Below are positions 19,505 through 35,561 of a stretch of 64,000 nt of DNA, one piece after another. Every line of letters begins with the position of its first letter. Positions within the stretch are counted from its first letter, which is position 1. Below the pieces are notes generated by a model. It was not told the origin of the DNA. It was given only the letters and a program-made list of their open reading frames with translations, and searched no databases. A program made the position numbers and the translations under genes. The stretch is from Spiroplasma kunkelii CR2-3x (GTDB lineage Bacteria; Bacillota_I; Bacilli_A; Mycoplasmatales; Mycoplasmataceae). Location: the NCBI RefSeq assembly GCF_001274875.1, contig NZ_CP010899.1:1240001-1304000 (forward strand), in the 5' to 3' direction.

Positions 19505-19583
19505 AACTTACCTCCTAATTATATTAAAATATGTTATAATTTATATATTATAATTATAACATTTTAAATAAGGAGATAAAAAT

Positions 19584-20039
19584 ATGAAAAAATGACTTAG
19601 CATAATAGGAACAATCGGATTAACAGCAACAAGCACAACAAGTTTGATTGCTTGTAAAACACTTAAATCAAATAATAATAGTAAAAACGAGGGCAATAAA
19701 GCAGAAACTACACTAAAACCACAACAACCACCAAAAGATAGTAATTGAAAATTAATTCCTAGGGATAATGATGTTTTAGTACCACCCAAAGTAATTGTTT
19801 CTACTGATAAAAATAAATATGTAAAAGAAGATGATAGGAAATATATTGTAATTTATCCATATCTAATCCAACAATGAAACATAATTAAAACAGATACAAA
19901 AAATATTAATAATATCTTTGCATGAAGTTCCAAAGCAATAATTTATTATTGAGATGGTGATGGTGAACCTGAAACACCAACAATCAACGAAAACACCAGT
20001 GAAATTACTGATTGAAAAGAACAAAAAGGAACTGAATAA
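19584..20039 (+). CDS. Lipoprotein A carrying a plectrovirus ORF1 module
   Basis: 151 aa, start after AAGGAGATAAAAAT. Residues 1-24 are a lipoprotein signal peptide (MKKWLSIIGTIGLTATSTTS, then LIAC with the lipidated Cys), followed by an Asn/Lys/Pro-rich linker to residue ~52. Residues ~53-144 (NWKLIPRDND...EITDW) are a near-exact copy of a module inside the neighbouring viral ORF1: 19742-20017 aligns without gaps to the reverse complement of 21399-21674, 7 differences in 276 bases as I read them. The tail KEQKGTE is shared with lipoprotein B (26101-26526). It would be anchored on the outer face of the membrane. The gene converges on ORF1. Function inferred: attachment-domain decoy or module donor. 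Confidence 0.85.
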
Positions 20040-20052
20040 CAGTTCCTTTTTT
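20028..20052. terminator. Terminator between lipoprotein A and ORF1
   Basis: GGAACTG / CAGTTCC perfect stem followed by TTTTTTAT; it overlaps the lipoprotein stop codon and serves the convergent pair. Confidence 0.75.
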
Positions 20053-22093
20053 ATATTAATCGTACAAATTTCATAAAGATAATTAATAAAAAAATATTTG
20101 TTATTGTACTATACAATGCATGATTAAATTTTCATACCTCAAATATTTGACTAAAAAAACTATATACTGTCTCAAAAACCTTGCCAACACCACTCGCTAA
20201 CTCGTTAACTTGTTTAACTCCCGGAATAGTATTAACAATCCAAATCACCGCATTTTTAATATGAGCACCAAAATCTCATCAACCTTTAGGAGTTATATAT
20301 TGAACTTGTCATCATTGTTTATCAGGGAATAAACCACCACTATTTATCTCTTGTCAATTATAAATCCCAAAATTAAAATCATAATAACGGTACATATCAT
20401 TTTCTTTTTGTGCTTGCAATTCAAAAACATTATAACCAATTTTTTGTTCTTCAATTTTCTTATATTGCAAACCATATTTTGATTGTAAATCACCACCAAA
20501 AACATAACCAGAATTTAACTTAATATCATAATTATTAACAACCGAAAAATCATAATTAAAAACACTACCATAATTATTAATGGTATAAAACCGATTTTTA
20601 AATGCTGAATATAATTTAATATCTAATTGCTTATATTTATCTGAAAAATAAAAATATCGTGGATAAATTTTAAAACCATTATTTACTAATAAACCATATT
20701 TTTTATTATATCCTTGTACATAAGTATTATTTTCTAAATCAAAAATCGTTCGTAAATAATTAGTATAAAATTTCTGTGAAATCTTAAACATACTATTTAA
20801 TAATTTATCAAATTGTAATTTATCGTTAATATTTTCACTCAACAAAATATTATTAAAATTTTGCAATTTCAACGCAAAAAAGTTAACTAAAACAGTATCA
20901 TACTGTAAATTATTAATATATCCATTTTCAATAAACGAACTACGATTTTGGAACACTGGCACCAAAGCACTTGCAAAAAACGACTGTAAAAACTTAGATA
21001 AATCAAATTGACCGTTAAACTGTTGATAATATCTTAAATCTTTATTATTTAATGATGAATAAATTGAACTATTAAAATTAAAAACTTCACCCGTTACCGT
21101 TCGCATAAAACTAAAATTAAAACTTAAATCATCACTATTAACATTATTTAATTCCAAACTACCCGAAATAATTAAATTTGCTTCATCAACAGTCAAAATC
21201 ATCCGATAAATTGCTTTTTTAATATTTTTAACATATAATTCATCAACCGTCTCAAAATCATAAATTATCCACTTTGTTCCAACCTTATTCGGATTTTCAT
21301 AATCCGCACTACCACCTTGTTGAACTCTAATATTTTCTTGCAAAACAGCAGTTAAAGAATAATTAATAAATTCTTTTACGAAATTTTGTTGATAAGTATT
21401 TCAATCTGTAATTTCACCGGTGTTTTCGTTGATAGTTGGTGTTTCAGGTTGACCAACGCCATCTCAATAATAAATTATTGCTTTGGAACTTCATGCAAAG
21501 ATATTATTAATATTTTTTGTATCTGTTTTAATTATGTTTCATTGTTGGATTAGATATGGATAAATTACAATATATTTCCTATCATCTTCTTTTACATATT
21601 TATTTTTATCAGTAGAACCAATTACTTTGGGTGGTACTAAAACATCATTATCCCTAGGAATTAATTTTCAATTATCTTGTTTTAACTTAACTCTTGGATA
21701 ACGATTTTCTTTATAACGCCCAACATTGTCGACAATTTTTTTAGACACATCATACATATTATATTTTACGGCAAAAGCATAAATAAAATCAGTTAAATCA
21801 TTTAAAAAATTTTCCTTTTTAACATCATAAAATTTTTTAACCATATATGTATTTTTTCAACTATCTCACATTTGATAAAAACTAAAAAAAGATGAACTTG
21901 GTTTATCATAAACAAATCCCGTTGAATAACTATCTTGTAAAAAATCCAAATACCATTTATCATTAAACAATAATTTTTTTGATGTTTTTAAAGTTGGATT
22001 AATAAAATAATTTGTTTCAGACCAATTTTCAAAAAAACTGCTGCGTAAAAACATTGTATTAATAAAATCAGTTTCATTAATACCTTTCATCAA
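20051..22093 (-). CDS. Plectrovirus ORF1-like presumed attachment protein, 5' end removed by inversion
   Basis: 681 open codons (TGA=Trp). The N-terminus (signal peptide and first ~50 residues) is found inverted at 22466-22619. Visible parts: an N-terminal domain (ETDFINTMFLRSSFFENW), the variable module (residues ~140-232) shared with lipoprotein A, a long beta/aromatic-rich central part (YPRYFYFSDKYKQLDIKLYS), and a C-terminal membrane anchor with VKQVNELASGVGKVFETVYS and ITNIFLLIIFMKFVRLI. Architecture (secreted, C-anchored) matches minor attachment proteins of filamentous phages, hence the role; identity as SpV1 ORF1 is from family recall. Confidence 0.7.
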
Positions 22094-22218
22094 CTGTACG
22101 AAAAGGTATTAATGTTGGTAAAAATGTTTATCAGAATAGTAATAAGCAACAAGTTAAACGAGAAATTAAACGTCAAAATATTAGACAACAAGCAAAAATT
22201 AAAAGAGGTGTTAAATAA
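22093..22218 (+). pseudogene. C-terminal half of plectrovirus small basic membrane protein
   Basis: Reads TVRKGINVGKNVYQ to [11 protein letters not shown], highly basic, and ends TAATG overlapping the next start. Its N-terminal half is at 22620-22847 on the other strand. Probably a DNA-binding virion or assembly protein, from charge alone. Confidence 0.6.
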
Positions 22219-22454
22219 TGATTAAATTAGTTTTATTGGTGGCGGCAATCGCTATATTTGGAACTGGTTTTATTACTGTTATTATTAATCAATTTACATC
22301 AGCAAAAAATATTATTATGGATTTATATAATTCTGATACGTGGTTAATTTGATTATTTGGTAGAATGGCAGTTTTGTTTAGTCATCCGTTAATGTTAACA
22401 ATATCGAGTTTATATATTGTTGGGTTTATTGTTTCAAAAACATTGTATAGTTAG
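22218..22454 (+). CDS. Plectrovirus small membrane protein (78 aa)
   Basis: Two hydrophobic helices (about residues 3-22 and 47-75) around a short hydrophilic loop. The ATG overlaps the previous stop (TAATG). Size and hydrophobicity resemble filamentous virus coat or assembly proteins, but no family was recognised. It is intact but lies in the inverted segment and so is cut off from its operon promoter. Confidence 0.55.
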
Positions 22455-22465
22455 GAGTTAAGTTT

Positions 22466-22619
22466 ATGAAAAAATCGTTATCTTTATTTGCCATATTTAT
22501 TTTAAGTTTTTTAGGTTTGGTTATTCCATTTATTACTTTAACGGCGTTTAGACCGTTAAATGAGAAGTATTATACGCTTAAACAAGAGAATAGTACTGGT
22601 AATATACTTGCGAAACACC
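22466..22619 (+). pseudogene. N-terminal fragment of plectrovirus ORF1
   Basis: Starts after TAGGAGTTAAGTTT with a signal peptide (MKKSLSLFAIFILSFLGLVI), then RPLNEKYYTLKQENS up to the inversion breakpoint, after which the frame reads unrelated sequence and stops at 22627. It is the missing head of the ORF1 body at 20051-22093. Confidence 0.65.
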
Positions 22620-25685: not shown

Positions 25686-26087
25686 GATGTATCTAAAAAA
25701 ATGTCGACAATGTTGAGCGTTATAAGAATAATCGTTATCCAATAGTTAAGTTGAAGCAAGATGATTGAAAAAGTATAAGTGGTACATTTAACCAAGAATT
25801 TAATGTTCGTAATAATAAATGATATATAATGTCTGCAAAAAAAACCTAAAACAAATGATAATTTTATAATTATTAAATTTAAAAACAATTATATTGATAA
25901 ACCATTTGGTAATCCTGGTGTTAAACAAGTTAACAAATTAGCGAGCAATGTTGGTAAGGTTTTTGAAACATTATATAGTTTTTTTAGTCAAATATTTGAG
26001 GTATGAAAATTTAATACAGCATTGTATAGTACAATAACAAATATATTTTTATTAATTATTTTTATAAAATTTGTGCGATTAATATAA
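25678..26087 (+). pseudogene. ORF1 remnant B fused to coat gene start
   Basis: After MLGMY the sequence enters ORF1 at the VSKK-VDNVERYKNNRYP region, with frameshifts and a TAG. It then has a short divergent module (NNKWYIMSAKK, NDNFIIIKFKN) and, after an internal deletion, the ORF1 C-terminus (NPGVKQVNKLASNVGKVFET ... FIKFVRLI). The module differs from that of ORF1 A but resembles lipoprotein B next to it. Confidence 0.7.
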
Positions 26088-26115
26088 AAAGGAAATGTTA
26101 TTAAGTTCCTTTTTG
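26086..26115. terminator. Terminator between ORF1 remnant B and lipoprotein B
   Basis: AAAAAGGAA / TTCCTTTTT stem, same layout as between lipoprotein A and ORF1. Confidence 0.55.
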
Positions 26116-26526
26116 TTCTTTTCAATCTGTAATTTCACCGGTGTTTTCGTTGATTGTTAGTGTTTCAGGTTCATTATTTCCTTGTCATTGGTAAAACGAA
26201 TTAACAATATATCATACTCGATTAATTATATGATAAGGTGCTCCAACACTTCAAACTGATTTATCTTAAAAATTAAATTTTATAATAGAAAAATCATCAG
26301 TTTGTTGCTTTTTAACAATTGCAATATATCATTTATTATCTGGCAAAATATAACGAACACTTAATTTTAAATTACTATTTTCTGGTGGTTGTTGCGGATT
26401 ATATGATGGATCTGGTTGATTACTTGCCTCGTTTTCATTATTTTTTTCTTTATTACAACTGATTAATGTTGTTGTGCTTGTTGCGATTAATCCGATTGTT
26501 CCTATTATGCTAAGTTATTTTTTCAT
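26101..26526 (-). pseudogene. Lipoprotein B, decayed, with a different ORF1-type module
   Basis: 142 codons in one frame with two TAA codons: codon 4 (the TGA-Trp of the MKKW leader has become TAA) and one after IIKFNF. The leader (LSIIGTIGLIATSTTTLISC) and the tail (INENTGEITDWKEQKGT) match lipoprotein A, but the middle (LPDNKWYIAIVKKQQTDDFS) does not; it resembles ORF1 remnant B (NNKWYIMSAKK...NDNF). It converges on that ORF1 remnant exactly as lipoprotein A does on ORF1 A. Confidence 0.75.
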
Positions 26527-32911: not shown

Positions 32912-33409
32912 ATGAAAAAATGATTAAGTTTTTTAGGAGCAATTACATTACTAGGTACAAGCACAACAAGTCTAGTTGCTTGTAATACACCACAATATAG
33001 CGAAGATGAATTAACACAACTAAAACAAGCAAATCAAATATGTACAAATTGCCAAGAAATAAAAGAAAAATTAGAATGAATAGCACCACAAGAAAAACCA
33101 TTTAATACAGTTGATAATAAATATTATTTTGTGGTGTGACGTGATAGCAAAAATAGTAATTGAAATATTAATAAATTTAATAATAATAAAGAAATTATTT
33201 TAATAACTGGTGATATGAGATTACAAAAAACCAAATTTGGCAGTGAATATGACTTGACTATAAGAGTTCCAGAAATAAGAAATATGAGTGTTTGAAAAGA
33301 AGATGATAGAACTTATTTTAAAGCAGTTTATCGTTGAAATGGTGGCGAAGAAAATCTACCTGATTTAATAATTGATAATAATGGTAATGTAAAATTTAAT
33401 GGTGAATAA
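32912..33409 (+). CDS. Lipoprotein C carrying the prophage fibre protein module
   Basis: 165 aa, only plus-strand gene of the prophage, start after GAAAGGAGTAACTTTTT. Signal peptide (MKKWLSFLGAITLLGTSTTS, then LVAC) with lipidated Cys at residue 24, a helical linker with CTNC, then residues ~58-147 identical to part of the fibre protein at 33945-35561: 33084-33352 equals the reverse complement of 34104-34372 over 269 bases without a difference as I read it. The module contains two DNKYYFVVWR / DRTYFKAVYRW-type repeats. The last 18 residues (ENLPDLIIDNNGNVKFNG) differ. Expected outside the membrane; inferred decoy or donor, as for lipoprotein A. Confidence 0.87.
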
Positions 33410-33944: not shown

Positions 33945-35561
33945 TTAATATTTATCAATTAGTACTCAATATCCAAATGCTCGCAAACCAATAGCAGCCG
34001 TTGTTACAATACCACGCTGTGCTTTTTCTCATGTTTTAAAATCTTTTCATACCCAAAACTTAATCATATCCCTTTCACCATCATATAATAATATTGGTGA
34101 TCATTCTTCGCCACCATTTCAACGATAAACTGCTTTAAAATAAGTTCTATCATCTTCTTTTCAAACACTCATATTTCTTATTTCTGGAACTCTTATAGTC
34201 AAGTCATATTCACTGCCAAATTTGGTTTTTTGTAATCTCATATCACCAGTTATTAAAATAATTTCTTTATTATTATTAAATTTATTAATATTTCAATTAC
34301 TATTTTTGCTATCACGTCACACCACAAAATAATATTTATTATCAACTGTATTAAATGGTTTTTCTTGTGGTGTCATTTCTTTTAATCTGCTTTTGACATA
34401 TTTGACACTACTTTCTATTTTGTAGGGCATTTCTCTTATTCTTTTGTCTAACTCTTTTGTTTTTTGATCCATTTTTTCCATTTCTGTGTTTCATTTTTTA
34501 TTGTGTTCTTCTATTTTTTCTCGGGCATATTCGCAAAAATTAATAAAATTGTTGGGGTTTTTGATTGATTGAAAACGAATGGGAACTCGTGCGGTATATT
34601 CTCAGTCAAAGGATTTTATTTTTTCGCCTTTTAAGGGTAAATTAAAACTAAGAATGGGAAATTCATAAATTCCATCTTTATGTCTTGTGTTTAAGTTATC
34701 TTGGATTAATCTTTCTTTGTCTGTTCATACAAAATATTCGCTAGCACATCTGTTTTGATAAATTGTTTGGTATTTAAAATCATTTACTTGATTAATGTTA
34801 TCGATTATGGCGGTTGCTATTATTTTTGAATTATCGTTTCAAAACATGACACTTTTGATGTTTTTTCAAGGTTTATTTTCTTCTTCGTTGGTTTTTTCGA
34901 AATAGAATTTATTGTCAATTTTGCTTGGTTCAACTTCGTCAATTTTAGTGTTAATGGGGCATTGTTCTAATAATTCTGTTAATTTTTCAATTTGTTCGCT
35001 TTTGTTTTCACCTAAACTTTTTATAAATTTTTTATTAATATATTGGTAGTTTTTATCTGAGTTGTCTATATCTGGGATTGGATACACTAATGGTGCTTTG
35101 GACATATCTATTTTAATTGTTAGAAATATTGTTTTTGTTGTTTCTGCTTGGTTTTTTGCATATGGAATTAAGTCGTTAATATCGTTTGTGGTGTTATTTT
35201 CTACTTTAATCATTCTTCCACAAATGCTTAAATAAAAAAATGGTATTTCTTTGTTTCCTTTTTTAGTTTTTATTTTTACTTGAATTCCATTGTCTTCATA
35301 TTTGAATTCTGCTTCCAAGTTTTCTTGTTCGCCAAATCCGTAAAATAAAAAACCTGTTGAATTATTATCACATAGTTTTAACATTTCTTCGTTGTAATTA
35401 TCGCTATTAGTTAATAAGTTTATAGCGTTTTTATTGCTTAATTCTTTATTGGCATAATAGGGGATTGTTTGATTTCTTAATAAAAAATCATAGTATATTG
35501 CTTGGTCATGGTCTGTTAAATAATCTTCTGTGTTGTCAAATGTTATAAATCTAAATGCCAT
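33945..35561 (-). CDS. Prophage fibre/receptor-binding protein with exchangeable C-terminal module
   Basis: 538 aa (TGA=Trp). N-terminal domain (MAFRFITFDNTEDYL...) probably docks on the baseplate. A middle coiled coil (residues ~370-415, KWNTEMEKMDQKTKELDKRI) leads into the module at ~397-486 that is duplicated in lipoprotein C, followed by a conserved-looking tail ending FGYWVLIDKY. Position after tail-tip genes and the coil-then-domain plan suggest a host-recognition fibre. Its start overlaps nothing and has AGAGAGG upstream. Function is inferred. Confidence 0.65.

Follow-up and report, generated by a model that had tools for sequence, protein, structure and literature searches.

In filamentous-phage pIII-mediated immunity and in retroviral envelope-derived restriction, a copy of an attachment protein displayed by the cell interferes with receptor use. 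Superinfection-exclusion lipoproteins are also already known. The small lipoprotein Llp of phage T5 blocks FhuA allosterically from the periplasm (PMC9586334), and Vir, a surface lipoprotein of the mollicute phage MAV1, confers resistance to superinfection according to the passage of PMC7466169 that cites Clapper et al. 2004. The subject of the present analysis is a 64,000-nucleotide stretch of the Spiroplasma kunkelii CR2-3x genome (NZ_CP010899.1, positions 1,240,001 to 1,304,000; hereafter the window), which contains a plectrovirus locus. At this locus, a lipoprotein gene (LP) carries a near-identical, inverted copy of a module found in the neighboring gene ORF1, and the product of gene 1 in the relative SVTS2 is labelled adhesion protein in the International Committee on Taxonomy of Viruses profile (PMC8295915). 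Based on sequence comparisons, LP is probably a virus-encoded superinfection-exclusion protein that displays the virus's own receptor-recognition module.

The comparison with the known systems shows both likenesses and differences. As for Vir, the gene belongs to a mollicute phage and encodes a surface lipoprotein on the strand opposite the structural genes. Unlike LP, however, Vir has no module in common with the MAV1 structural proteins (blastp matches no better than E 0.14) and is not accompanied by an inverted repeat. In the absence of a copied module, Vir is analogous in function rather than an example of the same design. Llp is likewise a small phage lipoprotein that stops receptor use by the phage's receptor-binding protein, but it is a separate lipoprotein that is not described as a copy of that protein, and it operates in a Gram-negative outer membrane. 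In contrast to the pIII and envelope cases, the Spiroplasma LP is a separate gene that carries the hypervariable module only and is re-copied as the module changes. LP would be a new variant among the superinfection-exclusion lipoproteins, and there is a real chance that it represents a new, module-coded system. No description of a copied-module lipoprotein arrangement in Spiroplasma viruses was found in the open-licence literature. Nor did that literature yield a superinfection-exclusion lipoprotein that is continually refreshed from the hypervariable attachment module of its own virus, in three or more virus types and with modules crossing between single-stranded DNA (ssDNA) and double-stranded DNA (dsDNA) viruses.

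The original prediction, made from the sequence alone, described a gap-free inverted copy of 276 bases with seven differences, four of them changing an amino acid, in frame in both genes. Alignment of 19742-20017 (plus strand) with the reverse complement of 21399-21674 reproduced this description exactly. The differing bases lie at window positions 19798, 19958, 19960, 19965, 19982, 19998 and 20009, the amino-acid changes between the two copies are V/G, D/V, E/Q and S/G, and both copies are read in frame under genetic code 4. The proposed lipoprotein signal peptide is borne out by a match to the mollicute lipoprotein leader NF038029, which includes the lipobox Cys (33.3 bits against a cut-off of 24), and the fusion points are as clean as had been claimed, with homology between LP and ORF1 that begins abruptly at NW and stops at TDW. 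The ORF1 product matches Pfam PF12461, 'Spiroplasma phage ORF1-like', over residues 4-680 (E 9e-247, 821.5 bits against a cut-off of 25). In a scan of the window for inverted repeats with arms no more than 4 kb apart (E 1e-6), only two were found: the plectrovirus pair and a second pair at 33084-33352/34104-34372. The features of the plectrovirus locus are as follows.

19570-19575: ribosome-binding-like AAGGAG 5' of LP
19584-20039, plus strand: LP, viral lipoprotein gene, 151 amino acids under code 4
19584-19655, plus strand: lipoprotein leader ending at lipobox Cys24, NF038029 above cut-off
19656-19742, plus strand: LP linker (KTLKSNNN..QQPPKDS)
19742-20017, plus strand: module copy in LP, from the alignment
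20023-20051: terminator-like hairpin of 12 pairs between the convergent LP and ORF1 (1 found, 0.1 expected)
20051-22093, minus strand: ORF1, attachment (adhesion) protein body, 680 amino acids, PF12461, signal-peptide end detached here
21399-21674, minus strand: module copy in ORF1, from the alignment

A segment of about 518 bp (22086-22602), which holds ORF9 and the signal-peptide end of ORF1, is inverted relative to other plectrovirus copies, and the ORF1 copy in the window is therefore disrupted. A PDB search with an AlphaFold model of LP (mean pLDDT, the predicted local distance difference test score, of 60) gave no match; the model obtained for ORF1 was not usable.

The LP gene is also present, unannotated, in the genomes of the free viruses SkV1-CR2-3x, SpV1-C74 and SpV1-R8A2B. 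The GenBank records of SpV1-C74 and SkV1-CR2-3x mark repeat regions only, with neither a lipoprotein gene nor a function, and these annotated inverted repeats are the two module copies (1668-1913/3300-3543 in SpV1-C74 and 4386-4676/6197-6487 in SkV1-CR2-3x). SkV1-CR2-3x and one provirus of the home genome share 99.97% identity over 3.6 kb, so one resident copy corresponds to a known virus. When the home genome was searched with the 91-amino-acid module, the matches fell mostly into opposite-strand pairs about 1.5 kb apart. ORF1 was present in nine of 14 Spiroplasma genomes, and nearly all intact plectrovirus copies retrieved contain an inverted repeat of about 150-310 bp that is 93-100% identical. 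In most of them, including a clade whose ORF1 is about 63% identical to that of the window, the second repeat copy lies behind a lipoprotein leader. In the home-genome copies, the leader lies a short way past the 3' end of ORF1, and each LP module agrees with the one in its own ORF1 although modules from different copies are largely unrelated. Searches of IMG/VR with ORF1 and with the tail protein described below gave no match.

The matching was scored by comparing each LP module with each ORF1 among 55 evaluable, non-duplicate plectrovirus copies. The mean identity of an LP module was 0.859 to its own ORF1 and 0.237 to the others, a result reached by none of 20,000 permutations, and 50 of the 55 pairs were clearly matched. 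The LP leader is in frame in 44 of the 50 matched copies and has a ratio of replacement to silent polymorphism (pN/pS) of 0.33 over 46 unique leaders. The leader is under purifying selection, and LP is constrained as a protein.

The match between the two genes is maintained at the DNA level. Divergence between LP and ORF1 in the module core is 0.9% at silent sites and 1.2% at replacement sites, as against 19% (silent) and 10% (replacement) in the last 22 codons of the pair, and the mismatch rises towards the module end. Near-identity at silent sites shows repeated, recent DNA copying between LP and the attachment gene, and the ends of the copying tracts evidently lie in the conserved tail. In loci L083 and L108, the modules are 96-97% identical in both genes while the backbones are about 83% identical where alignable; in this exchange between divergent viruses, both copies were replaced together. 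A plectrovirus (L044) and a tailed prophage (L134) have a common module with 92% DNA identity in both copies; modules move between virus realms. In two loci (L041 and L042) the LP leader is fused to ORF1, and in a third (L114) the front of ORF1 is fused to the LP tail; these fusions are the products expected when such inverted repeats recombine. L114 (G002:C1:1301441-1306459) contains a perfect inverted duplication of 1463 bp, in which the N-terminal part of ORF1 and the module are joined to the LP tail and replace the LP leader.

The second inverted repeat of the window belongs to a tailed prophage that extends over roughly 33.4-57 kb, and it has the same layout.

32912-33409, plus strand: second lipoprotein of the same kind, 165 amino acids
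33084-33352, plus strand: module copy in the second lipoprotein, 269 bp, 100% identical to its partner copy
33945-35561, minus strand: tail protein of the tailed prophage, presumed to bind the receptor, 538 amino acids, at the end of the tail cluster
34104-34372, minus strand: module copy in the tail protein

The tail cluster continues to about 49.4 kb with genes for a minor tail protein, tape measure, neck, HK97-type capsid and protease, portal and terminase. Eleven of the 12 non-duplicate tail-protein loci that were read are matched, and the exception has a decayed tail gene. In a third phage type, with an 806-amino-acid partner protein and a weak terminase match, the repeat was found at 17 of 19 loci, a fraction biased upward by the initial choice of some loci for opposite-strand matches; 13 of the 17 were read as pairs of LP and partner. 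The copied-module layout is therefore present in at least three virus types of Spiroplasma, and the second pair in the window is the strongest support for its generality. The original prediction has the anatomy right. Rather than one fusion, however, this is a lasting feature of the viruses, which persists as the module is replaced time and again. A general host domain that lacks a viral copy in its vicinity is, taken overall, not an apt description of the module, since about 80 virus loci have a matching neighbor and free virus genomes contain the LP gene.

Receptor masking is the best explanation of this layout, and its recurrence in unrelated viruses strengthens it. LP would be expressed in carrier cells, with its lipid anchor holding it at the outer surface of these wall-less cells. 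There it is proposed to bind the receptor that the attachment protein uses and thereby block the entry of virions with that module. It may also allow the carrier cell's own progeny to be released cleanly, without re-adsorbing. If specificity resides in the module, LP would have to be re-copied whenever the attachment protein changes its module. Plectroviruses are extruded through the membrane of the living cell, and tailed phages are assembled in the cytoplasm. With such different places of assembly, the outer face of the wall-less cell would be the common site of LP action. Occupancy of the receptor would account for the matching, the re-copying, the separate convergent gene and the recurrence in unrelated viruses.

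Other explanations were considered for the second module copy. It is unlikely that the copy is primarily a genetic element, either an inverted-repeat cassette whose inversion or gene conversion makes ORF1 vary in phase or tropism, or a DNA hairpin used in replication, with the lipoprotein being secondary. The inverted repeats are indeed near-perfect and identical at silent sites, recombination products such as L041, L042 and L114 do occur, and GenBank marks the inverted repeats alone in C74 and SkV1. Nevertheless, swapping in a cassette identical to the expressed copy would create nothing new, the reading frame of the copy continues that of a conserved lipoprotein leader under purifying selection, and the layout is also found in dsDNA tailed prophages, whose replication differs. 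As to regular inversion into alternative ORF1 forms, a few fused or inverted products (the same three loci) and no systematic alternation were seen. It is also improbable that the matching is a by-product, in which LP is a surface lipoprotein with a different task, such as interaction with the host or an insect, and the modules are passively homogenized by recombination between the inverted repeats. Although the matching does arise by DNA copying, and solitary LP-family genes persist in chromosomes, on plasmids and in phages that lack a matching tail module, passive copying leaves unexplained why a module-bearing lipoprotein lies beside the attachment gene in unrelated viruses and why both genes of each virus hold a module that is unrelated to those of other copies. 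Finally, matched copies on both partners would likewise be needed if the module bound to itself and LP on the cell were the receptor, or a tether, of virions carrying an identical module. This alternative is very improbable, since it would draw virions to cells that are already infected and would have no evident benefit for the temperate tailed phages with the same layout.

Three further readings were set aside. A one-off fusion in a host lipoprotein was rejected, as free virus genomes and dozens of virus copies contain LP. A purely host origin of the module was rejected as a full account, though solitary LP genes exist. A role of LP as a host immunity archive in decayed proviruses is not claimed: a hand count of the plectrovirus copies in the home genome gave about 16 intact LP genes of 27 and about 8 intact ORF1 genes of 25, which is no excess once gene length is considered.

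Several observations weigh against superinfection exclusion as the function of LP. The near-identity at silent sites demonstrates copying and cannot alone prove selection for matching. Clear mismatches are seen in R8A2B and in loci L074, L116 and L118, with a partial one in L131, and LP is frameshifted in SpV1-C74. Promoter scans of the regions upstream of LP gave a signal no better than shuffled sequences. Avoidance of a common module type by proviruses of the same genome was in the predicted direction and not significant (P about 0.26-0.37), in a test that omitted near-identical whole-virus duplicates, which favors the prediction. Solitary LP genes are located in the home chromosome. In the S. 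poulsonii phages MaM-2019a (L180, L181 and L182), an LP-family gene is convergent with a 1071-amino-acid tail protein adjoining the portal gene, and no module in this tail protein matches the neighboring LP. Matching is thus not essential for the persistence of the LP family. Its members in the solitary chromosomal genes, MaM-2019a, R8A2B and a few other plectrovirus copies have no match. In the isolated virus SpV1-R8A2B (L060, X51344), the LP module is of the L115 type and the ORF1 module of the L128 type. Each type is matched in its own virus, so R8A2B resembles a natural recombinant, and it looks like a case in which the attachment module was changed and LP was not.

If LP is a superinfection-exclusion protein, sequence alone would predict which virus is excluded from which strain. 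For attachment proteins of no known structure, the module also indicates where the receptor is probably recognized. Resistance of Spiroplasma lines carrying viral DNA is reported for SVTS2 in the portion of PMC8140453 that cites Sha 1995. LP offers a testable mechanism for resistance of such lines, although SVTS2 (Suturavirus) itself has neither LP nor a comparable inverted repeat. More tentatively, module-coded self-exclusion may be common to unrelated viruses of one host genus. Hypervariable receptor modules would then pass back and forth between plectroviruses (ssDNA) and tailed phages (dsDNA), and on acquiring one, a virus would also copy it to its LP. The carrier cell would be closed to all viruses with this module, whatever their family, and R8A2B and other mismatched viruses would have escaped the system.

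Additional members and remnants were observed. A remnant of a second plectrovirus copy lies at 25908-26526 of the window and consists of the C-terminal end of ORF1 and an LP with stop codons. LP-family relatives are carried on S. citri plasmids, unpartnered LP genes are found in some remnants of the third phage type, and the MaM-2019a LP module recurs at five places in genome G008. At L158 (8861-10056), the family is represented by a tandem pair of lipoproteins whose modules differ; they are convergent with a 960-amino-acid phage protein that has no such module. At L155 (9256-11853), a stand-alone open reading frame of about 300 amino acids with similarity to the C-terminal part of PF12461 adjoins a solitary LP, and similar reading frames recur at several places in the home genome.
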